Shown: positions 21,931 through 55,303 of the stretch, in pieces | Layout: every line of letters starts with the position of its first letter | Numbering within the stretch: the stretch's first letter is position 1 | Source of the DNA: Labyrinthula sp. Ha | Lineage: Eukaryota > Sar > Bigyra > Labyrinthulida > Labyrinthulaceae | Length of the DNA stretch: 64,000 nucleotides | Direction: 5' to 3' | Assembly (NCBI GenBank): GCA_015227615.1 | Contig: JAALGZ010000025.1 | Coordinates: 310,001-374,000, forward strand | Translations under genes and position numbers: made by a program | Notes under the pieces: model-generated | The model's input: the letters and a program-made list of their open reading frames with translations, nothing else | Database searches by the model: none | What the model was told of the DNA's origin: nothing

Positions 21931-22116
21931 TGTCGACACGCACACCAAACACTTTCGTTTTGGTTTCGTATTTGGAAATCTTTAGTTATACGTTGCCGGT
22001 ATTTATCCTTGTAATATATAACTGATATATTGTATAAGAGTTTGCAATACAATACACTTAATGGTTAATACCTAATCGATACATTCACAAAGTTTGAAAG
22101 GTTCTTAAGGAGAACG
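21931..22116 (+). repeat. 5' LTR of the Ty3/gypsy element
   Basis: About 186 bp, starting TGTC, matching the 3' LTR across its whole length with roughly 9 percent differences counted by eye. The exact right edge (22116-22120) is uncertain. Confidence 0.85.
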
Positions 22117-25100
22117 GCTAATCTCGAGATTAGTCACTATGAGTCAAACTAGTGATGCAAATTATGAACAAATTACAGAGCAGAAAGACAAGAAGCCAGA
22201 TTTACAGGCAGTACAAACGGACCCAGTACAATCGGAGGCTTCAGAAACTCCTACTTCTTCTAGGGCAAAGGGACGCAAATCACCAGGAAAGAAAGACAAG
22301 AAGTGTCCAAGGAGTCCAGTGGCAAGGGGGTAAAGACCCGAGGAACTTCAAAAGACTCGCTGCTGACGGCCCAAACCTTAGATGAGCTCAAGAAGAAGAG
22401 AAGGGAAGATAGCAGAATGACCACGTGGAACGCCAGATTGGAGGCATTGGATAGTTTAGCGAAGCAGTTTGAGAACTAAAAGGAGAAACTGGAAAGCCTG
22501 CAAAGGACCACGGTGGAAACTCAAGAGCTGCAGCAGGAACTAGCCAAGAAGATCATGGACCTCCTGACGAATAACGCTGAAACGAGCACCAATCCAAATC
22601 AGCAACAGCAGGAGGACAAGCCTGAGAGGGACAGCGACCTAAGAGAAGATGATAAAGAAACCATAGATTCGGAAAAAGAGCAGCAGGAACGGAATAAACA
22701 AAGGGGGGGGGGCAAGAGAAATACACAGGAGACGAAGCAGGTTCTCGTATTAGCGCAGTTGAATCACAGTTCTCAATAAAACGCGAACTTCCGTGATTCT
22801 TGGTTTCTCGGCTTGATCCGAAACGGCCAGTACGTACGTTGATAAGGAACAAAAGAAGAAATCGATGCAAAGAACGGTTCCTCCAAGGGCACCAGATGAA
22901 GTTCATAACGGAGGAATACCTTCGGTGCATTTTGACCCTCCTGTGAAGCTTACCGAGTTAAAATACGAGAGCCTATCAAATTTCATTCACGAATTCAACA
23001 ACGTCAAGGTTAACGTCCCGGGAGTTAGTGTGTGCGGCTTATTGTCAAAAAATGTTGCAGATACGCTGTATCTCAGGGGAGTACAAACAAATAGTTCAAA
23101 TGCAACATTAAGATATCTCCAGAGATACCTAGCGGCTTTTGAAAGGATGCAGAAGAAAAGAGCTCTCAAAAACCTTAAACAGAAACTTACGTGGGAGTCG
23201 AAGGATTTGAATGAAATTTAGCAAATATTTTTCTTCTTCGATCAGGTGGCAAGGAATTTACGTTTCCTGAATCAAGAGGAGTAAACAAAAATCAGAAGAA
23301 GATATTAAAGTTGGTGGTCAACAAGATTCCAAACATTTTCGACGTTGATATCGACGAGCTGGCTATTACAATGGACTGATTAAATTTGGATAAGTTGAAG
23401 ACTTATCTACTAAGCAGAATTTTTGTTATCAATAAGAAGGAAGAACCGATGCATAACAAGAAAAATAAGTTGAAAGGAATAAGAGTTGTTAAAGATATGA
23501 ATGGTATAAGATCCAAGGACAAAATCCCTCCGCCTAAGTTCGTCAGCAGGATCAAGTTGAGAAGATTGGGAAATGAAGCGAGAACCATTGGAATTATGCT
23601 CAAAGAAGATTATTCTGGGGAGTTTATCAAAGTGAAGGGCTTGGCCGACACAGGAGCAGATAGAAATGTGGGTAGTGCTCAAGCTATGGAGCGTTATAAG
23701 GTGGAAGTGGAGGATCATATTCTCATCAAAGAGATACAGTTGCCAGACAAGCCATTACGCAAAATGACCAAGGTCATTTCCGCTCATGTCAAATTAACCC
23801 AGGCGGGAGACCAAGTTGATATAGGCGTACAACGCTTCTTCTGCATCGATAATCCAGCTTGGGATGAAGTCATCCTCGGTAAGAAAACACTGGATTATTT
23901 CATCGATACTTTAGATTTAAAGGTGGCCAGAGTTAAGCAAAACAGAAAATAGGAAATAGACAAGGAGTTGAAAGAAACTCTGGGACCCGTTATTCGAAGC
24001 ACAAGGGCCCCACGAAAGCATACGATACTTGTGTTCGAGGAGCTCTCCAGAGCTGAAATCGACAGTGAGAAGCTAGGACTCTAAACTTCCGGATGCACGC
24101 TGGTTCTAGTAAATGTAATAAGAAGTAACTGACAGGAAGTATTCTCTTTGTTTGGATCTCTAAACCTCGAATTCATTGAATCGATAATCTTTCTGGGAGG
24201 GGAGAAAAGGAAATTAAAGTCACCTATTTTTCATATCTCCCACACGAGTTCAAGGTATCTTATCATCTGGAACAGCAAATTTGATAAGAAGGTAATACGC
24301 AATAAAACCTCTACAGATGTTATTCAAGAATTCATAGAATTATCTGAAGAGATGCAGAAGATCTTTATTAGCCTACTCAATGTGCCAGAAGTTGATATAG
24401 AATTCACTTCGAGGCTGACAGGATCTACTAGCAATAATATAGACGCCGATAGAACTGTGTCCTTAGCAAGAAGCTCAAAGTATTACCAATTGAAGAGGTC
24501 ACGTCAACCCGTTTTCAATATTTAGAGAATATAAATGATCAGCCAAGGTTACACCAATTGTAATAAGTAACCTGGTCGACGATATTCCCGAGGAACTGAA
24601 TGAAATAGGAATCGGTGAAGGAAATATCGAGAAGGTTGAAGAAAAGAAGCTAATCAAGAAGATGACAGTAGAAAAGTTGGAGGAGAGCACTCTTAGCTCA
24701 TTAAAAAAGGAACAGATGATCGAAACCATGAAGTCGTCAATGGAAACTTGGGGCCTGAAGCAATCAAATTCCCTGATGTCTTTATTAGACCCAATACACG
24801 TCGACCTAGTTAAAGATCACAAGATTTTGCGACCAGATGACTACCACCAGTCCCCAGAAGCTGAAAGATTCCTGGAGCTCAATTTTCGTTAGCTCCAAGA
24901 GGCTGGAATAGTGGAACCTGCAAAAAATCCACTATGGGGTCACCCGTTTTTGTGGTACCAAAGAAAATGAGTGTGCCTTCAAATTGATCGCAGATAGATG
25001 CAATGGAGAGAGCAGAGTGGAAGAAGTCTAACTTACTAAATTGTTTTAGGATGGTTTCTAATATGATAAGATTCAATAAGATTACTATACCGACGTCGCT

Positions 25101-28100
25101 AAATCTGTCCAACTTGGAGAGGCAGCTGCTTTCGATAAATGATTCTAAATATTATATCACTTTGTATGTGTTAAGCGGCTTTGATTTCATGCCTACTGAA
25201 GAAATCTCCAAAGATGTGTTTACATTAGTTACCAGGCGCTCAGCCTGGCGCATGAATGGTTCCCCATGGGCTGGAAGAATACACCAGTGTTATTTTTTGA
25301 TCGAATCATTAATCAGATTATAGATGGAGAGGACGGTCGATACTTTGCTGCGCCTGGAAATGAGGTGGTGGCCTGGTTAGATGACCTGTTTATTTATGCC
25401 AACACGTTTAAGAACCTACTGGAGATATCACACAAAATGCTGGAGTGCGCAAGGAAGCTTAAGGTACGTTTCAATTTGCGCAAATGCGGATTCAGCGAGG
25501 AAGTTACAGTATGGTGCGGCAGAGAGGTGCGCCAAGGACTTTGGAATTACTCACCTAAGTTTTTTGAGAAGATCTTATCCCTATCGAAACCTAAATATCG
25601 TCACGAAGCAGCGCAGTGGGTATACCTGGCGAATTGACTCAGTCCCAATATCCCCAAATTAGCTGAGTTGAAGAAGCCTTTTGCTTATTTTGCAAACCTC
25701 AAGTGCAGAAAACTAGCGGAGGTGGAGAAAGATATGGAACCGGTGAAGTGGAATGATGTTTTAGAGGAGGCGTATGAGAAGTTGAAGCTTGCAATCGTCG
25801 AAGCCTCTAAACGTTTTCTCAGCACCTACGACCACAAGATCCCGTTACTGTTATTTACGGATACCAGTCAGGATACCTGGTCACTGGCTCTATTCCAAGA
25901 CGAGTTGGAACAGATAGACAACGATGTTCGCGCTCTCAGGTCACGCCCGTTGATGTTCCTTTCTGGGGGGGGGGGGGGTCTCAAACTCAGAGATCCGGTG
26001 GCATATCTCTTCAAAAGAGTTATACCCGATAATTTACGCTTTTGAGCGAGTCGGATATTTACTACATACCCATTCCGGGGGTATTTTTGTCTATACGGAT
26101 CATAGGGCGCTCCTGAGCGTTATAAAAATCAAAGACAACGAGAAAAAAATATATTGGGATAGATTGTACCATTCGGTAATACGGCTGCAGTCGGTTGACC
26201 TAACGATATTTCATATCCCAAGCAGAGATAATTTTGTATCAGACCTGCTAAAAAGATGGGGAAAGGTGCAGAGTGATCCTACAATAAATGTAGCAAGATG
26301 TAGCCACGTTTTGGGTCGTTCTTCGAATAAGCCGGTCGAGAAAGCGGAGTTATGGAGCATAAGTTGCGCTGAAGGAGAATCAGATCCAGTTGACTTTATT
26401 AAGGACGAAGATGTCTATATTATAGAGGTTGGCAGATTTAGTTTCTATGATGAATTGGAAAGAGAAACAAAGATTGTGGTCATAACTTCCAAAATTTTGG
26501 AAAGGAAGGAAGAACACTACCAGTTCAAGGAAGCAGTCTAGCATTCTATTCCATAGGATCATGAGAAGTCAAGAAGAAACATATTTACACAGCACTCTTC
26601 TTATCTATCTCCCTTTTATGCAGGTGAACGTTTTCATGAATTGAATTTGGAGGCTTTGATTAAGATGCAAAAACGCGTCGATAAGGCATTTAGGTTCAAG
26701 TGAAAATTCAAAGACAAGATTCTGTATTTTGGAGATAAGCTGGTGATTCCAAAGAAGTTCTTTGTGCACGTTCTAGTCAAAAAACATGTGTTAATGGGCC
26801 ACCCGAGTAAAATTTCGGAGGCCAACGAGCTGTCAAAATATTTTTTTCACGGAGTTGATAACCATACTTACAATTTGTTGTTTCCGAGCTTCCGGGGTAG
26901 ATGTCTGCATTGTCAGCGTGGACCCCTGTTGATAAGAAGACCTCTACATTTAACGAAATTGGGAACCAAGTCGAGAAGGGTGCTTGGTGCTGACTATTTA
27001 TTTATCAACAGCACTGGCTATATTCTAGCCATCGTCGACACCTGTACAAGAAAAGTCCAACTCACTTTCTTTAAGACTCCAACAGTAAAAGGAATGACCG
27101 AAGGATTCGAGAGGTGGAGAGATAGTTTTGGATTTGAAAGTGAACTTGTTATTGTGACCGACAATGGATCACACTTTTAAAATATGTTACTACAGCAATT
27201 GTCGAAGTCCATTGGGTTTGAACAATATTTCGCAGTCACATATTTGCCCTGGACCAATGGGTTAACAGAGGTTATAAATGTAACTATCCTAAAATATTTG
27301 AGATCTTTGTTATCTGAATACCCAATGCATGAGTCGGAATGGCCATATTTAATACTATTAGTGGGGTACTTGATAAGCAACAAGCCGGTGTCTTCAAGAA
27401 ATGTGAGAATCTCAAACGATTTTTTCTTCTATTTTAGGCCTGCTATCGATGTATTCCTTAGAAATCTTGAACATTTTGCAGTTCGAGTCGAAGAGGACTT
27501 AAAGAAACCAGCAAGCGTTAAAGATATTGAGACTGCTACAAATGAAACACAAGATGAGTTTAAAAGAATCCAGTCACAAGCCTATGAGGTTACAAGGTTA
27601 AATAGAGAAGAAGAAAATGTAAGAAGAAACAAGAAGGCTGGTGCGGTCATCCAATATTCTCCCGGTGATTATGTCTTAGTCTCCGATAAAGGAACCCCAT
27701 TCGCCAGTAAAAAGACGCGTATATAATGGATCGGTCCCTATCATGTGCTGGAAATCTTATCCAATAACATGTATAAATTGGAAGCTTTAACTGGCACCAT
27801 AAGAATTGTTCATGGGAGTCGAATGTGGTTTTGCTCACATCAGAGGCCCATTGGTAACAAGAAGTTGAAATCTTTATTTATCCACAATTATCAATCGGTG
27901 GAAGTGGAGAAAATAGCGGATATCAAATTTTCGGAGGGGAATAATCCTATTTATTTGCTAAAGATTTGATCGCTGGGGTTTGATCCAGATTCGGATACGT
28001 CGGAACCCCTTATTTCTGTTTATCAGGATTTGCTATTCTTCTTAGAAGATATATTGAAGACGAACTGCTGGATGAAAGGTTTAAAAAGCATTTACTTTTA

Positions 28101-28679
28101 GTACTGGAAAAATCAGACAACAAAGAGTATGATCATCTCAAGAAAAATAAGACTCCAAGGTTTAGAAGAATCAACGCTATTTAGAATGTGGAGAAGATAG
28201 AGATATCTAACACTTTAGGCTGGTTCCAAGAAGAAAAGAAAATACTTGAACAATTGATTCATAAATTCGGTTCTGGTAAGTTTGCAAATTATGGAAATAA
28301 GTTCTTACCTTTTAGGAGCAAACAGTAGTTGTCAACGCAGTTACAGCGTTTAATGAACTTGCAGGATATAGGAATGTTCCATAGACTCTGATTCAAACCA
28401 GCAAAGGCAAAAGAATTTTTGAAGAATAAGTTTGGAATTAACGAGTTTCATCGTAATATTCCAGGGGGGGGAATTAACCGCAAAATAAAGCTTCCTCTTA
28501 GACATGTTCCAGAAGGAAGTAGTAACATACGTTCCCGCAGAAACTATTAATATTGATTATTTTAGGAGATTAGATGATCCTCGACACTTGCAGTTAATAT
28601 TAGAGGAGTTTGAACAGCCTCAATGTAAGCAGTTCCTAAGGTCTTTTGGAATACATTCAGGAAAGGATATATAGAGTAA

Positions 28680-29688
28680 ATTGAAGTCGTTTTCAGATTT
28701 TGTCAAAGAAGTTCTCAAAGATTCAGAACGTGTTTTATCCGATTTCGTTAAGAATATTCGAGCACATGTGAAGCTTTGGACATGTCTTGTTAGATTTTAC
28801 GCCAAGTCCCAATCTCACTCAAAAGATACCGATTATTTTAATGAGAAACACGAAAACCTTATTTTTGATTCAGCGGATCATATTTTATCCTTAACTGGGG
28901 AAAGAGAAGGTAAGGTTGAACTCAGCTTTTTCGACAAACAATGTGCAACGAAATATTGGATTACTTATTCTGGTGGTAGCATTTTTTTCATTTCAGGTAC
29001 AGAGGTCTCTATTTTCATTGAGCCGCCAGATGTCACTTTATATTTACGCAATGTTTTGGACTTAACTTTTCTACAACCTCGAGCTAAACGCAGTTGCTTC
29101 GACGTAGTGCTGTTGGATCCTACTTGGCCCATCGGAGCTAGCAATCTCATGCGTGGTGTAGCTCTCGATTATCCTACCATGTCATTTAGAGCCTTTTCAA
29201 AACTCACTCTTCCTGTCCAGAATTTTTCCTATGGCAGTGTCATGTTTATTTGGGTTACCAATTCTGTATATCAAGATGTTTTAAATTGGGCAGCTGGGCA
29301 AAATTGTTTCTTTGCTGATTTCTTTACTTGGGTTAAGAAGCACGCTTCGGGCAAATTCTCCAAAAGTTTGGGATTCTATTTTCAGCATTCCCAAGAAACA
29401 TGTTTGATGTTCGAAAGGCGCTCCTCCGCCTCCGTTGTTTATTCAGATATATTCCTGGAGAAATGCTTTGGCGAAGCGCCCTCTACTTTCTTGACCTTAC
29501 CCAGATTACCCTCCGCCAAACCTGAACAATTTTACTACATCATCGAGTGCCTCTTTCCGCACGGTAATAAGCTAGAACTCTTTGCTAGGTACAACAATAT
29601 TCGTCCTACGTGGATTAGTTGTAGCCTCAGTTTGATGCCTAACGCTCATGTTGTCTACACCTCGCTTAGTCCTACAAACCTCTCTTAA
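28680..29688 (+). CDS. MT-A70-type N6-adenine methyltransferase frame carried by the gypsy element
   Basis: An uninterrupted frame of about 335 codons lying between the integrase region and the 3' LTR, ending 10 nt before that LTR. It has the MT-A70 fold signatures in order: 'FDVVLLD' leading into a DPxW-type catalytic motif at about 146-149, 'RGVALDYPTMSF' near 158-169, 'MFIWVTNSVY' near 188-197, 'FFTWVKKHASGK' near 214-225, 'GFYFQHSQETCLM' near 231-243, 'SAKPEQFYYIIE' and 'LELFARYNN' near the end. These proteins transfer methyl from SAM to N6 of adenine in RNA or DNA. The RGV..DY and GFYFQH..E segments look to me closer to the MTA1/AMT1 DNA-6mA branch than to METTL3; this is from memory and uncertain. 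Coding-like sequence upstream (about 28.0-28.7 kb) may be the N-terminal part of the same cargo. It is part of a broken element, so present activity is doubtful. Confidence 0.8.
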
Positions 29689-29698
29689 GTTTGGGGGA

Positions 29699-29884
29699 TG
29701 TCCTCACCCACACCAAACAGTTTCGTTTTGGTTTCGTATTTGGAACACTTTAGCTATACGTTCCCGGTATTTATCCTTGTAATTTATAACTGATATATTG
29801 TATAAGAGCTTGAAATACAGTACACTTGATCTTTAATACCTAATCGATACATTCACAAAGTTTGAAAGGTCCTTAAGGAGAACG
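29699..29884 (+). repeat. 3' LTR of the Ty3/gypsy element
   Basis: About 186 bp beginning TGTC directly after a G-rich polypurine tract (about 29690-29698). Direct repeat of 21931-22116. Confidence 0.85.
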
Positions 29885-40831: not shown

Positions 40832-43415
40832 ATGTCATTTAAAGCCCCATTAATTAAACAACAATTTGAGAACAGAAATCAAAGCAATAAGTTCATCATT
40901 CAATGGTTTATTTATTTCCCCTTCTAATTCATAGGTCTTATGATGAGAATTACAACTCAACTGAAGGTGAAAGGTTTAGAAGAGAAGCAGAAGAGTTTGT
41001 TATAAAAGTGAATATGAACAAAGAGATTACGAGGTTGAGGTATTCATATATCTTGTTTTATGGTTTAGTTTTTACTTCTGTCCTTTAGATTTTATTGGAA
41101 AAAGCCTTTCTATTTGGTTTGAAAAGTTTCCAAAGGTTAAAGAACTTCAGTATTTTCTTGTTTTGTTTTTATTTTAGGTTTTATTATTGTCATTTAAACA
41201 CCTTGAATTTTATTGGAATGGAAAAAATGAAAAAAAGACTGAATATTGAGTCAATAATGTATATTTTTTGTTGTTTTTATGTTTTAGTTTTAAATTGTGT
41301 AATATTCCAAAAGATAATTCTCTTTCTCAGTTTTTAAAAGGACAAAAAATAAAGTTAATAAAGTAAAACTTTATATTTATATTCATAATAGTCTTATTCA
41401 AAATAACATAAAAAAACAAACACTTTTTAAAATATTGAAGGAAGTTTCAAAAATGAATACTTTGATAAGTGTTTTGTATTCTCTCTTCTTTTCTTTATTT
41501 GTAGTATTGAAGAAGATAATTTGAGCTTTCAAAACCCAGAAATTACCAATTTAACAAAACAGTGTTTGGAAAATTTGCCTGTTTTGTTGAAGTTTATGTG
41601 TATTTTTGTTTTCTTTTGAGTTTTAGTTTGCGAGTTGCTGAAACAAATATTGAAGAAAACAAGAATGAAGTTCAAAATTTACTAGATAATCATTCTTCAC
41701 TTTTGTTATTTGAACTTGGAAAAAATAAATTCAATAGTAAAAAATTAGAAGAAAGAATGAAAAGTTATGTTTCATTAAAGCTAAAAGATAAATACAATAA
41801 CCGAACTATTTTAAATGAATGTCAAGTTTTTTTTATGGGTGATGGAAGAGTTGGAAAAACTTCTACCATAAGAAGTATATTTGACAAAAGGTTTTTACTT
41901 GAAAACAATTCAACCTTAGTTTTGAATGATATTGATATATTTTCAATAAACCCAGCCAATTATATCTGGAACTCAATATCTAAATATGAACTAAGTGTTC
42001 AACGAGTAAAAAATAGTCTTCCCCGTGTTGTTTATTATGATTTTGATCCTAATCAAGAAGTTGAAACAAAATATAAACTTGATTTTGAAAAAGAACTTCT
42101 TTCAAGAACAGTTTCTGATGAAAAGTTTATCGAGCAAATGAAAACAAGCTCTCCTGGTTTTGCTAAACGTGATGTTTATTTCCGTGTTTATGATTTTGGT
42201 GGACAAGAAATATTTTCTTCTGTTCATCATATTTTTATGAACTCAAATTCACTTTATTTTATAGTTTTTAATATGACTAAAATATCTCAAAATGAATTAT
42301 TTAGATTAAAATTTTGGTGTGAAAGTATTTTAAGAAATACAGAAAAAGCACCAGTTATTTTTATTGGTACATATTTAAGAAGATATAAAAGAAAGAATGA
42401 TGATACAAATCTAGAAAAAATACAAAAAAAACTTCAGGACTTTGTTGAAAATCTTTCTTCTGAGTTGAACATATTGAAAAATGATTTGAATATTTTCTTT
42501 CCTATTGAGAATTCAAAACTAGATTCTCAAGAGAAAAAAGATATAAAAGATAAAATAAAAAGTCTTACTTCTGGAGCAGCTGGAATAAATAAAGAAAATT
42601 TTCTTAATTTTAAAATGAGAACTGCACAAATTCTTTTCCTTGATAATTGTCGAGAACAAACAAATATTATGACTTTGAAAGAATTTGAAGATAAATCTTA
42701 TTCTTGTGGTTTTGAAGATTGGGAAGTTGAAGCTATGCTTAGAATATATTCAAAAGTTGGTTTAATTTGTTATTTTTCTTATTTAGATTTGGAAGTAGAT
42801 GAAAACTTTATATTTTTTACACCTTCTTATCTTGCTCAAGCTTTAGGAGCCTTTATTCGTGATCCAAATTTTCATGAACTTGCATTTAGAATTCCAAGTG
42901 ATAAATTTTCTTTATATAGAATTTATGTTGATAAAGGAAAACTAAATAAAGAACTTTTTAATATTTTATTAAAAGAATATTCTGATAAAGAAAAGAAATA
43001 TATATTTGAACTATCTCTAAAAAATCTTATTTTAGTAAGAGTTGAGAATGAAGCTGATAAATATATTCTTCCTGAATTACTTCCACCTATTAATGATAAA
43101 ATAAAACCTACTTTCACAAATGATATAGAGTTTAGTTTTAACTCTCCTTTAAGATTATCCATATTTGTTAAAGTAATCACTTTTCTTCAAAAAGAAGATA
43201 ATATATCTGATTGTTTTATTTTTAAATATTTTAGCAGATTTATTTTCAACAATAATAGAATAGTTGATATTTTTGTTAAGACTGAAAAGAGTATTGGTTT
43301 TAGTTTAGTTCAAGGTGGAAGTTTTGATTGGTTGAAAGAAATAGTTGGACGTGTTTCTATGGATTTGATACTTTTGGATAATAGTTTTATTCTTGTTCAA
43401 GTGAATAGTGTTTGA
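40832..43415 (+). CDS. LRR-Roc-COR (Roco) protein, eight exons
   Basis: Roco proteins are large GTPases in which Roc (Ras-of-complex) and COR act together, usually as dimers. Spliced model: exons 40832-40905, 40935-41039, 41069-41149, 41178-41258, 41288-41362, 41392-41475, 41505-41591, 41627-43415. This removes seven introns totalling 208 nt and leaves 2,376 nt, 791 residues. All seven introns are phase 2, and the internal exons are 75-105 nt, about one leucine-rich repeat each ('VKELQFYYCHLNTLNFIG', 'LPVLLNLRVAETNIEEN'). Roc: P-loop 'GDGRVGKTS' at 267-275, G3 'DFGGQE' at 385-390, G4-like 'IFIGTYLRRYK'. COR about 520-740, including 'DWEVEAMLRIYSKVGLICYF' and 'ILPELLPP'. There is no kinase domain, unlike LRRK2; the protein ends after COR with a TGA. 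Without splicing the first exons would be missed and the start placed inside intron 6. Confidence 0.88.
40906..41626 (+). other. Seven micro-introns in the Roco gene
   Basis: Predicted introns: 40906-40934 (29 nt), 41040-41068 (29), 41150-41177 (28), 41259-41287 (29), 41363-41391 (29), 41476-41504 (29), 41592-41626 (35). Donors are GTTTAT, GTATTC, GTATTT, GTATAT, GTAAAA, GTATTC and GTTTAT. Acceptors are mostly T-rich and end TAG. Each join keeps the leucine-rich repeat pattern and frame, and the total leaves a coding length divisible by three. Confidence 0.85.
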
Positions 43416-50715: not shown

Positions 50716-53700
50716 TGATTGCGACTGGTAAATGGTTCTCTACACTGTTAGATTTAAGGACAATACTATTCTCCCTCAAACTACGAAAGCTGTTAAACTA
50801 ATTCTCTCTGACGCACTTAAAAACAAGGTTTTGGACTTAAGAACGCAAGAAAACTTCATCACACTCAAAAGGTTCATTGAGATGTATATTAAGCAGCTGA
50901 ATCTTACCTGCGTAGAGTCTACTTACTCAAGTGATGGAACAGTAGTGGAAAACACAGAAAAAGCTGGTGAAGCTGTCCAACTTAACAAAGTCTGCAGAGA
51001 AATGGGAACAAAACACTTGGACTTACTGGTGGACTCAATCAACCCAGAGCAACTTCCTAACTTCTCAAATGTTACGAAAACGGATTATTTTGTCCTTTCC
51101 GAAGATGTGGACGAATTCATTTCCGATAATTTGATCACATTCTTTCCTGAACAAATTGACTACCTTACAAGTCTCACCTACCCTTACAGACTCAACAAAA
51201 TCATTCGAACTCTAGGTCACAGCTTTTACCTGTCACGTGACACGCAACTTTCTGCAATCTTTTCAACTTTCATGAACTTAAAATGGAAAAACGATGAAAG
51301 TCTAATGGAGTTCAATCAAAAATTCGACAAAGCTCTAACCTTCTGTACACAACATGGAATGTTTACGAAGACGCTGGACCAGGAAATGATTTACGTTTCA
51401 AAGATCAAGGAAATTTGAACTAGCAACAACATTCTACTTTCTACACTTAAAAATTTAGATTTAACAAGCACTGAAAAACTTAACACCGTTCAGTCTCAAA
51501 TCTCTTCTAAGGTCTACGCACACGATCCCAGAGGCATTTTACCACATGACGAAATTCTTACAGTAAACTTCACAAACTACCAAACTAACATTCAAAAGAG
51601 CTCAAATAACTTTAGACTTCTACAAAACACCTGCGTCTTGTGTGGTGAAAACTTTTCCAACGGATTCAACAACCATTACAGGAGTTGCAAAGCAAAGGGA
51701 AACACATGCTCATGTGGAAGAAGAAACCATTTGGAAAGCGTTTGTACCAGATTTGCCAGTGAAAGAAGGTTTCTACATAGTTTTAAAAACAGGAAAAACA
51801 GAACACCAAAAACTTTCAACAACACAGGCAAACAAACTCAATCCTCGAATGCAGCAACTTACGTCACATAAGACAAACCACTTGTAGCTCCTAAAACATT
51901 CGTCACTTTCTTTACAAACAAATATGCCTCCCAATCTTACCTGGATGAAAAAAATGTCAAGAACTCACAAACAGGAGGACAAAATTTGGCCTCTTGTGTC
52001 ATTGACACTGGTTCTAGTTGCAATGTTTTTAACGACCCATGCTTCTTTACTCATCTAAACCTTTACAAAAACGAAAACACGATTCAAGCTTTGAAAAACA
52101 AAGTGATGATCACAGGTGTTGGAACAGTTCGGATCAAATTTTCTGACACTAAAAAATCTCTAACACTTCCAGCTTACTACATCAAAGACGCAGAAACATG
52201 TTTACTTTCAAACAAGCTTCTCTACCAGTTGGGATGCAACATCAACTACGATCCTTCATATGGATCGATCAAGTTTGCAAATGAAGAGCACAGCAAGCTT
52301 CAGGACATTAATGGGATCAGTAAAGCTTGGATTGAACAGAGCACGGATACTTACTACACAACCCTGGATCATTCATCAGACTCGATCTGGCACTACAGGT
52401 TCATGCATGCATCAACAAACAAACTTTCTCACCTCGAGCTTTTTGAAAACGAAAAACTTACTAGCGCGGACTGTGAAACATGTGCCTTAACTAAAATGAG
52501 ACGAATGCCTTTGAAAACTGATTCGCTACTTAAGACTAAGGCACGGAAGAAAAACCAGGTTTGGCATCTGGACCTGCTGCTACCAAGCATACACCACACA
52601 GGATGCATGTTGGTAGTTGCTGACCAGTTTACACGATGGATTTGGAAATAGTTTTCACTCTCAACTAAATCATCTGACTTGAAACACAGCCTTAATAATT
52701 TACTTAGCCAAGCCAAAACTACTTGCAATCTTTTTGTTTTGGACATACAAACTGGATTCTTAACTACAGAATTTCTTAGCACACTTCATGAAAACAAAAT
52801 CCGTTTTAAACTTGCGACTCCGGAAAGACATGGAGAAACAAATGGTTTAGCAGAACGTTCAACTCTTTCACTTAGAGCACTTGCTAGATCTGCAATTAAA
52901 CATGCAAAACTCTCCACTGACTGGTGGAAATTTGCTTTCAACTACGCTTCCTTCATTAAAAACAGATTACCTCACATCGCCTTGGAAAACCCAACCCCTT
53001 TTGAAGTTTTTCATGGGTACAAACCAAAGCTCCAACATTTAAAAGTGTTTGGATGTTTAGCACACAAAATTGTGCCAACTCAGCAAAGAAAAGACAAGTT
53101 CAATGATGTTTCAATTCCATTGATTTTTCTTGGTTTCGATCCGCTTGGATCTTTCCTTACTTGTACCTTACTAAACAAGAGAACAAAAAGAGTCTCACAT
53201 GCACAATTACAAAATATTCATTTTGTTGAAACTAAATTTCATGACACGATTTCCAGAACAGAAAAGTTACCAATGATTAAAATTTCAAAGCACTCAACTA
53301 ATCTTTACGAAACTGACACTACAGAGAGTACTGACACTGATGATGATTCAAACACAGAACCAAGTCATTCTCTAACCATTGAAACAAGCAGGTCTAGTTC
53401 TGTACCAGTTGAAACGAACCCTCCGGAAGATGATGATGGAACAACCACAACTGTACCTGTTGAATCTAGCAACTTAGACACTGAAGGTACGCAGCAGCAC
53501 CCGATCTTTAAACAATCATACTCTCGAACAGGAAGAACACTTAAGCTTCCAAAAACGATTTGAAAATTCCTTAAACTACTTTGTTTACGAAACTTCAGAG
53601 TCAAAGAAACACAAGATTAAAAATTGAACTCCCAGACAAAAGGAAAAACTAAAAGAAATGATTTTAGACTCAAAACTTAAGCAACACCCGAGAATGTACA

Positions 53701-55303
53701 AAGACCTCGCCAACCATCCGCAAAAGGAAGAGTACGACAAGGCAATTCAGAAGGAGCTTCAGCAGATGCATTCTAGAAATGTTCTTAGCATCGTGAAACG
53801 CTCAGAAATTAACACAAATGACGAGGTTGGAAAATTGATCTTTGTTTTGACAGGAAAAAGAAGTAGTCTAACAAACGCTCGACTTGTCTTCAACGGATGT
53901 CATCAAAAGTACAAACTTCAAGCAGACTACTCTTCTCCTACTCTACACCTAGACAGCCTTACAACAGCTCTAACACTAGCTGCTCAACAGCAGTTTTCAT
54001 TCAGAACAGCAGATGTAGAAGCTGCTTTTCTCTGAGCACCTCTACCAAAAGATGTTAAACTTTTTGCAGAAATTCCTGAAGGACATCCTGACTTCTCACT
54101 TAGAAAAAATCACGTCTTACTAATTAAAAAAAACTCTACGGGTTACATGAGGCACCACCAATTTGGTGGAATCATTTTTCAAACATCATGAAAACATCAC
54201 TCAAACTTTACCAATCACAGTACGATGAATGTGTTTTCTTTGGAAAAGACATCTACATTCTTTCTTACGTTGACGATTTACTTTCACTGGGTACTCTCGC
54301 TAGAATTCAACATTGCACTCAAGCACTCAAGAAACATTTCAGGTTAAAAACTACTTAAATCAATCAAACGGTTGACTTCCTTGGGTGCGTGATTGAGAGA
54401 GATGAGCTTGGAAACTACTACCTTCAACAAGAAAGCTACTTGCGCAAGACTTTAAACAAATTTCAATCTTTCATCAAAATCTCTAACATTCCGATTCAAT
54501 CTGATTTTGACACACAACCAGTGGAAAAACTTAAGCACAAAGTGCCTTTTTGAGAGTGTTTGAGTAGCTTAGGCTTTTTGAGATACACAAGGTTGGACAT
54601 TTTGTTAGTTCTAAGTAAGATTGCAACTGGATCTACTGAACCATCAGTTAAACACCGGGTTGCACTTCAAAGCCTACTAGGCTATTTACAACAGAATCAA
54701 TCTTTTAAAAGAACCTTCAGAATGGAAGCAATTACTAAATTTCATCAAATTGTTGCTGTAGTTGACGCCTCTTTTGCAACTAACGCAATTTCTAGAAGAT
54801 CAACTTCAGGTAGGTACCTCTACCTTGACAGCACTTTAGTTTCTGCACATGCTTCAAACCAGGCAATCATTGCTACTTCTGCTCCTAATGCAGAGCTTTA
54901 CGAAGTGAACAGGGCAACTAAACATTTACTTTACATTCAAGGATTAGTTTCTGAAATGACACATTCAAACGCAAAGCTCGGCATTCTTACTGATTCAGCA
55001 TCAACTGTAAAGACATTACAAAGACCTTTAACACTAAGGTACAAGTTTGCAGCAGTACAGGTAGCATTCATTAAATCTCATCTCAAAAATTCTAACTTGA
55101 CTGTTGCCTACATCTCAAGACAGTTCAATTTTCAGATGCTCTTACTAAACCTTTAGAATTTACAACATTTAATAAGTTTTGGAAAGCTGCAACTTCAAAA
55201 TTTCAATGGAAACATACTCTAATCTAACTTACGACACAAATTAGGTTTTTTCTAATGGTTTTACCTTTTTTACCTAATCCCCGTTTACATTTTGCGAGCA
55301 CGG

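Follow-up and report, generated by a model that had tools for sequence, protein, structure and literature searches.

Ty3/gypsy retrotransposons of a labyrinthulid with polyproteins ending in relatives of two subunits of the MTA1 adenine methyltransferase complex

How an open reading frame (ORF) for an adenine methyltransferase comes to lie at the end of an otherwise broken retrotransposon, and on what its product might act, is the question raised by a 64,000-nucleotide (nt) stretch of the Labyrinthula sp. Ha genome (contig JAALGZ010000025.1, positions 310,001 to 374,000, forward strand), the whole of which is referred to here as the window. A Ty3/gypsy element spans window positions 21931-29884 between its two long terminal repeats (LTRs; Table 1), and an ORF of 335 amino acids (aa; 28681-29688, + strand) runs to a stop codon that ends 10 nt before the 3' LTR. 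The LTR pair, the order protease, reverse transcriptase (RT), RNase H and integrase, the long open frame with its distance from the LTR and the broken state of the rest had all been described in a first-pass annotation made from the sequence alone, and all are borne out; its assignment of the frame to the MT-A70 family is upheld by a Pfam scan (PF05063, E 5.6e-18, 65.9 bits vs a cut-off of 23.9). The answer to the first part of the question is that the polyprotein of this element and its relatives ends with relatives of two subunits of a complex that writes N6-methyladenine in DNA (6mA), i.e. a p1-like DNA-binding domain and then an AMT1-type MT-A70 domain.

The host assembly comprises 50.8 Mb in 153 contigs; the genome match lists show best-scoring rows only, so that all site counts given here are counts among the matches listed, and many of the sites are fragments. 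Queries with the window ORF (120 scored places, the best of 415 candidates) and with PF05063 (150 scored places, the best of 354), with 25 further rows added, merge into at least 236 distinct MT-A70 sites, the host AMT1 among them, which is far beyond chance. MT-A70 is found 727-1594 nt downstream, on the same strand, at 115 of the 148 listed chromodomain sites (controls: 0 upstream, 5 on the opposite strand), and within 5.5 kb downstream at 85 of the 150 listed RNase H (PF17919) sites (4 upstream, 1 opposite). With a divergent query, the family-C domain, a downstream MT-A70 is found for 36 of the 65 RNase H sites left over, to give 121/150, with both controls at 0; of the 29 sites still without one, 12 score higher than all other PF17919 matches and may belong to another lineage. 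Viewed from the methyltransferase, an RNase H or chromodomain site lies upstream of 148 of the 236 sites and none is listed for the other 88, many of which are fragments. The probability that a host gene was inserted by chance between integrase and LTR, which had been named as the alternative to capture, is practically nil, since the same arrangement recurs in many copies and in five families, by which counts it is refuted. Contamination is ruled out by the occurrence of MT-A70 sites on many contigs, including the largest.

Five divergent Ty3/gypsy families (A-E) end a long polyprotein with MT-A70 behind the chromodomain, in open frames reaching 2660 aa, and the domain is the end of pol wherever read. 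Seven long loci were examined (L031-L034 and L065-L067), all but L032 with a Pfam scan. Family A includes L031, whose pol frame of 1891 aa carries RVT_1, RNase H, rve, Chromo and MT-A70, and L032, the sister of the window element, which is in several frames; family B has single frames of 2271 aa (L033) and 2328 aa (L034), family C frames of 445, 810 and 1133 aa (L065), family D frames of 573 and 1756 aa (L067), and family E a frame of at least 2505 aa, the first part of which is outside the sequence examined (L066). MT-A70 is the last domain in all six scanned loci (33.2-120.3 bits vs the cut-off of 23.9), the order RT, RNase H, integrase is seen in five of them (L031, L033, L034, L066 and L067), and Chromo is above its cut-off in L031 and L067 and below it in the other four (L033, L034, L065 and L066). 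In the window copy, the apparent start of the MT-A70 ORF lies just after an in-frame TAG (28672-28674); because of this, and because the domain is within long open frames in the relatives, the window MT-A70 part is the C-terminal end of pol and no separate gene. The earlier description of it as a frame in the position of accessory genes thus holds as regards its place downstream of the integrase, but a separate accessory ORF is ruled out, in that the MT-A70 frame continues pol.

A conserved block between the chromodomain and MT-A70 is common to the five families. In the Protein Data Bank (PDB), its profile (A2) scores highest against residues 23-96 of p1, a Myb-like protein that belongs to the Tetrahymena MTA1 6mA complex as one of its subunits (E 5e-20, 74.4 bits), the other entries matched including c-Myb (51.6 bits summed over three repeats), p2 (26.8 bits), and single-repeat Mybs and TRF proteins (about 25-30 bits); among the 60 best rows the match extends to profile position 78 for p1 and to position 74 for p2, and stops by 62 in all the rest. 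Searched singly, five of the seven block members match Pfam Myb_DNA-binding (E up to 1; best 2e-6), L067 alone matches p1 over 25-143 in the PDB (E 1.1e-9), and the group-A profile matches p1 over 3-205 (E 2.1e-8), in addition to MTA1. According to the sections available, p1 residues 25-71 form a homeobox-like domain, a helix-turn-helix (152-183) docks on the N-terminal helix of MTA1 (PMC9852454), the four subunits of the MTA1 complex bind DNA together (PMC9174199), and p1 is part of that DNA-binding, DNA-methylating complex (PMC9174199, PMC9852454).

When a fragment of Tetrahymena p1 is itself used as a genome query, 133 of the 150 listed places lie 465-1349 nt (median 789) upstream of MT-A70 (controls: 1 upstream, 0 on the opposite strand) and no MT-A70 is found for the other 17; together with the chromodomain and RNase H counts above, this sustains the earlier proposal that the lineage captured an MT-A70 adenine methyltransferase. 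The p1-like domain is present in 71 of 72 sequences (70 of the 71 loci, and the window), the sole one without it being the host AMT1 locus, L068. The element domains are 28-41% identical to the host p1 and 32-39% to Tetrahymena p1, host and Tetrahymena p1 being 45% identical to each other. The top two places for the p1 fragment, C100:136084 and C1:1284473 (69 bits; next 54), have no listed MT-A70 within 2.5 kb downstream. On similarity, we take the p1-like protein of the former, a stand-alone 227-aa open frame (L071, C100:136084-136302), for the host p1; a second stand-alone p1-like frame, of 384 aa, is at C1:1284473.

Similarity likewise supports assignment of the element MT-A70 domains to the AMT1/MTA1 type, i.e. 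that of 6mA DNA methyltransferases, rather than to that of METTL3. In every PDB search with an element query the top match is MTA1, e.g. for the window domain (106.6 bits vs 38.4 for METTL3), for L067 (117.6 vs 66.6) and for the group-A profile (132 vs 65.9, with Methyltransferase-like protein 2, 7cv6, at 40.7). The stand-alone 327-aa frame of L068 (C91:220479-221282; MTA1 249.6, METTL3 126.8, METTL14 57.8 and MTA9 28.1 bits) looks like the host AMT1, and a METTL3 DNA pattern gave no match in the host genome, in which a METTL3 was not identified. The catalytic motif reads DPPW in 46 of the 70 loci rows, which, on removal of four repeated loci and the host gene, correspond to 42 of 65 element places; the remaining places have DPAW (17), DPTW (the window copy) or a motif that is changed or outside the match (5). 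A tree of the MT-A70 domains, built from 37 of the 68 rows after those that were short or nearly identical had been removed, places the window copy with L002 and L003 (support 100/100), both of which keep DPPW. For ten elements the integrase and MT-A70 trees share 7/7 splits, weak ones included, which is consistent with acquisition long ago and, since then, mainly common descent; the arrangement, being present in five divergent families, is old in the host genome. Similarity thus supports the AMT1 type, and the trees leave the donor and the number of captures without decision.

Both domains are under purifying selection. Ratios of nonsynonymous to synonymous change (dN/dS) by the Nei-Gojobori method, as medians per set of copies, are for MT-A70 0.11 (45 pairs), 0.16 (36), 0.13 (10), 0.27 (10), 0.36 (6), 0.09 (3) and 0.07 (1), and for the p1-like block 0.06 (45), 0.18 (36), 0.10 (10), 0.21 (10), 0.34 (6), 0.11 (3) and 0.20 (1). 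For the trio comprising the window copy, L002 and L003, the MT-A70 median is 0.15 (3 pairs), the L002-L003 value being 0.50 on 14 changes. Between the window copy and its nearest long relative (L032, contig C143), the values are 0.15 for gag, 0.31 for the pre-RT segment, 0.16 for RT-RNase H, 0.13 for the integrase, 0.17 for the integrase C-terminal segment and 0.13 for MT-A70. As the MT-A70 value is like those of gag, RT and integrase, there is no sign of special selection on it after insertion; much of the divergence between window copy and L032 must predate insertion, and the selection acts on the replicating family.

These values bear on the proposal of the first-pass annotation that the window frame may have been kept by selection or co-opted, i.e. 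that the host now uses it as a methyltransferase gene. The 335 open codons inside a broken element, and the changes unique to the window copy (89 synonymous vs 61 nonsynonymous), are what such a gene might present, but the equally low dN/dS of the broken gag, RT and integrase (0.13-0.16) assigns this pattern to selection before insertion, the catalytic motif is DPTW and the frame has no start context of its own; co-option is on these grounds rejected as very improbable. With L032 as the reference there are 24 in-frame stops in the rest of gag-pol (2048 codons) vs one, at the start of the portion, in the 349 MT-A70 codons, a difference that is weak evidence given that the stretch was picked because it is open. 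The stops are in gag-protease (5), pre-RT (4), RT-RNase H (1) and integrase (4), with a further 10 in the integrase C-terminal/chromodomain/p1-like segment, for which counts are rough as it aligned at only 55%, as one tblastn piece and probably with out-of-frame stretches; gag, pre-RT and RT also have changes of frame. The decay is reflected in the Pfam scores of the window copy, RVT_1 being above cut-off (31.2 bits) and RNase H (24.7 bits) and integrase (17 bits) below, with the matches to RT, RNase H and integrase clear or clearer in the relatives. The two 186-nt LTRs differ at 16 positions, and a protease motif, DTGAD, can be read from the ORF translation at about 23647. A structure prediction for the window ORF from a five-sequence alignment (mean predicted local distance difference test score 48.2, predicted template modelling score 0.38) was not used.

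Table 1. Parts of the Ty3/gypsy element, by position in the window
Feature	Positions	Strand	Length or basis
5' LTR	21931..22116	+	186 nt
gag-protease, broken (frameshifts, 5 in-frame stops)	22139..23949	+	tblastn of L032 segments
pre-RT, RT, RNase H, broken (5 in-frame stops, frameshifts)	23968..26046	+	tblastn with L032; RVT_1 and RT_RNaseH_2 matches
RNase H end to integrase, broken (4 in-frame stops)	26176..27339	+	tblastn with L032; weak rve match in ORF 26743-27180
chromodomain remnant, approximate limits	27901..28062	+	by-eye reading against L032; Pfam Chromo scores from relatives only
p1-like (Myb/homeobox-like) DNA-binding domain, two in-frame stops	28206..28445	+	tblastn, 81% to L032 domain
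MT-A70 (AMT1-type) portion, C-terminus of pol	28636..29688	+	open from 28675; DPTW at 29116-29127
G-rich stretch, probable polypurine tract	29689..29698	+	sequence reading, just before 3' LTR
3' LTR	29699..29884	+	186 nt

The sequence relationships suggest that gypsy-type elements can write an adenine mark on DNA. On balance it appears probable, if only somewhat so, that the two-domain module would be a double-stranded DNA adenine-N6 methyltransferase acting on the element's own complementary DNA (cDNA) or on chromatin at the insertion site, such that new copies would be born 'active' and resist silencing. The p1-like part would hold DNA and the MT-A70 part would transfer the methyl group, probably at ApT; the module may be released from pol by the element protease and may need host MTA9 and p2. 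With less confidence, its target would be the cDNA or insertion-site chromatin, to which the integrase and chromodomain would bring it, and a new copy carrying an 'active gene' mark that resists silencing would be the likeliest benefit, because in AMT1-bearing eukaryotes 6mA marks transcriptionally permissive regions. Double-stranded DNA is the proposed substrate because both halves are relatives of subunits of a DNA complex and because in eukaryotes p1/p2 accompany AMT1 alone, according to section 6 of PMC12695648; the own cDNA or insertion site is the proposed target as in the suggestion made for elements bearing cytosine methyltransferases (PMC5890265). A tentative extension, for which we would claim no better than a minority chance, is that the lineage stamps new copies or insertion sites with a permissive mark to counter silencing, a strategy opposite in sign to cytosine methylation, and that element-borne writers shape the 6mA landscape of the host.

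The first-pass annotation had the product perhaps marking DNA or RNA; the AMT1 affinity and the p1-like neighbour, both of which it missed, point to 6mA in DNA over N6-methyladenine in RNA (m6A). That the module instead methylates element RNA, for packaging, stability or evasion, is quite improbable: the MT-A70 family has the RNA enzymes METTL3/14 among its members, RNA of the element is available within particles, and METTL3 is the second-best match (38-67 bits), but it is MTA1 that ranks first, the adjoining domain is related to a subunit of a DNA complex, and no METTL3-type zinc finger matched beside MT-A70 in the Pfam lists of the six scanned loci. It is unlikely, though less so, that the module is a tether or decoy with dispensable catalysis, in which the p1-like domain and chromodomain steer integration, or which sequesters host MTA9/p2 or AMT1. 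The DNA-binding role of p1 would suit such a function, as would the 17 DPAW places, which form one lineage (L035-L051; L033 repeats one of them) that includes copies with identical LTRs, L033 among them, and thus is young with a non-canonical motif; retention of DPPW elsewhere, and purifying selection on the whole MT-A70 domain, argue otherwise.

The DPAW lineage is one of several points that weigh against the favoured reading. Family C gives a near tie between MTA1 (25.6 bits) and METTL3 (22.0 bits), and the trees were built with METTL3 and MTA1 only, AMT2/5 (as well as AMT6/7) being outside the comparison. The base of the MT-A70 tree, including host AMT1 and MTA1, is without resolution; without L065 and L058 the element domains fall on one side of a branch (support 73/44, vs 53/8 for the AMT1 pair), by which a single origin is neither shown nor rejected, and the RT and MT-A70 trees of the ten elements share only 4/7 splits. 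Furthermore, no counterpart of MTA9 or p2 was noticed in the elements, in which there is one MT-A70 match per polyprotein and for which no dedicated search was made, while each of the four subunits contributes to DNA binding and activity in Tetrahymena, as the available part of PMC9174199 reports; therefore either host partners or independence of them must be assumed.

Aspects of the element families other than the module may also be recorded. LTR pairs are present in the window element, L032, L033, L034 and L067. The two repeats show no difference in L033 (over 431 nt) or L067 (over 124 nt), from which it follows that some copies are young, and are 99% and 98% identical in L032 and L034, respectively; no pair was found in the examined stretches of L031, L065 and L066, which may be truncated. 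No target-site duplication could be established, the only candidate being a possible CACAT at L033. Three family-D places (C2:883288, C37:14320 and C148:52942) have the same match scores and 1756-aa frames, and may be recent copies or duplicated contig ends. The retropepsin motif is before RT in L031, L065 and L067; in families B and E the only one found (DSGA) lies downstream of the integrase, between the p1-like domain and MT-A70, at residues 1896 (L033), 1949 (L034) and 2070 (L066) of the polyprotein, where Pfam RVP is above cut-off in L066 (21.8 vs 20.7 bits), below it in L034, and L033 has the motif only. The RT motif, usually YxDD, is W[LI]DD in L031, L033, L034, L065 and L066, the pattern giving no match in L067. 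Elsewhere in the window are Ty1/copia-type pol remnants (51986-54032, +; Pol_BBD, SH3_retrovirus and a weak RVT_2 match) and a 617-aa open frame with a Roc/Ras-like GTPase domain (41562-43415, +).

Searches of protein databases, by a method that needs shared 5-residue words and cannot show absence, gave six matches, all in EukProt and taken as from the same organism, and none from another species; P0004 agrees with C1:1598811 by identity as well as position, and for P0001 and P0003 the scaffold numbers appear to fit the contig order. Viral contigs scanned with the group-A alignment gave 33 pattern matches, none of which was confirmed. In the titles and abstracts covered, which include few subscription papers and no bioRxiv preprints, neither MT-A70 nor p1 is reported from a retrotransposon. 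Capture of an epigenetic enzyme by an element is known as a kind; the two-subunit 6mA module is a new form of it. An adenine-methylation enzyme has entered a mobile element along with the partner that binds DNA, and the pair has spread to well above 100 copies, providing natural p1 and AMT1-type fusions that are possibly simpler than the four-subunit complex, and a natural experiment on the role of 6mA in eukaryotes, in that, if the elements gain by writing it, the mark causally affects expression or silencing.

The relatives of catalytic MTA1 and DNA-binding p1 are shared with the MTA1 (AMT1) complex of ciliates, green algae and basal fungi, in which, as described in the sections available, they are separate proteins acting with MTA9 and p2 (PMC9174199, PMC9852454), whereas here they are parts of a single retrotransposon polyprotein. 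In DIRS1-like elements, too, pol ends with a putative adenine methyltransferase (PMC3266345; called DAM in PMC6338049), but it is Dam-like rather than MT-A70, no p1-like domain is reported in the available parts of these sources, and the elements use a tyrosine recombinase with no LTR integrase; the six scanned loci have the rve integrase and no tyrosine recombinase match in their Pfam lists. Capture by Ty3/gypsy elements of an enzyme acting on N6-methyladenine is described for the AlkB m6A demethylase of orchids (PMC9289625), which, by contrast, is an RNA-acting eraser encoded by an additional ORF, in Phalaenopsis. A methyltransferase is joined with a chromodomain in bdelloid N4CMT too, yet that is a host gene from bacteria, outside retrotransposons, which writes N4-methylcytosine (PMC8885841). 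Retrotransposons with captured cytosine DNA methyltransferases are reported from dinoflagellates and charophytes (PMC5890265), and, so far as that account is available, have in common with the present elements a host-derived DNA methyltransferase within the polyprotein, purifying selection, many copies and a suggested methylation of cDNA. Their enzyme, however, is an unrelated C5-cytosine methyltransferase of one subunit, for which no Pfam match was found in the window or the six scanned loci, whereas the elements described here pair an adenine enzyme with another subunit of its host complex, one that binds DNA.

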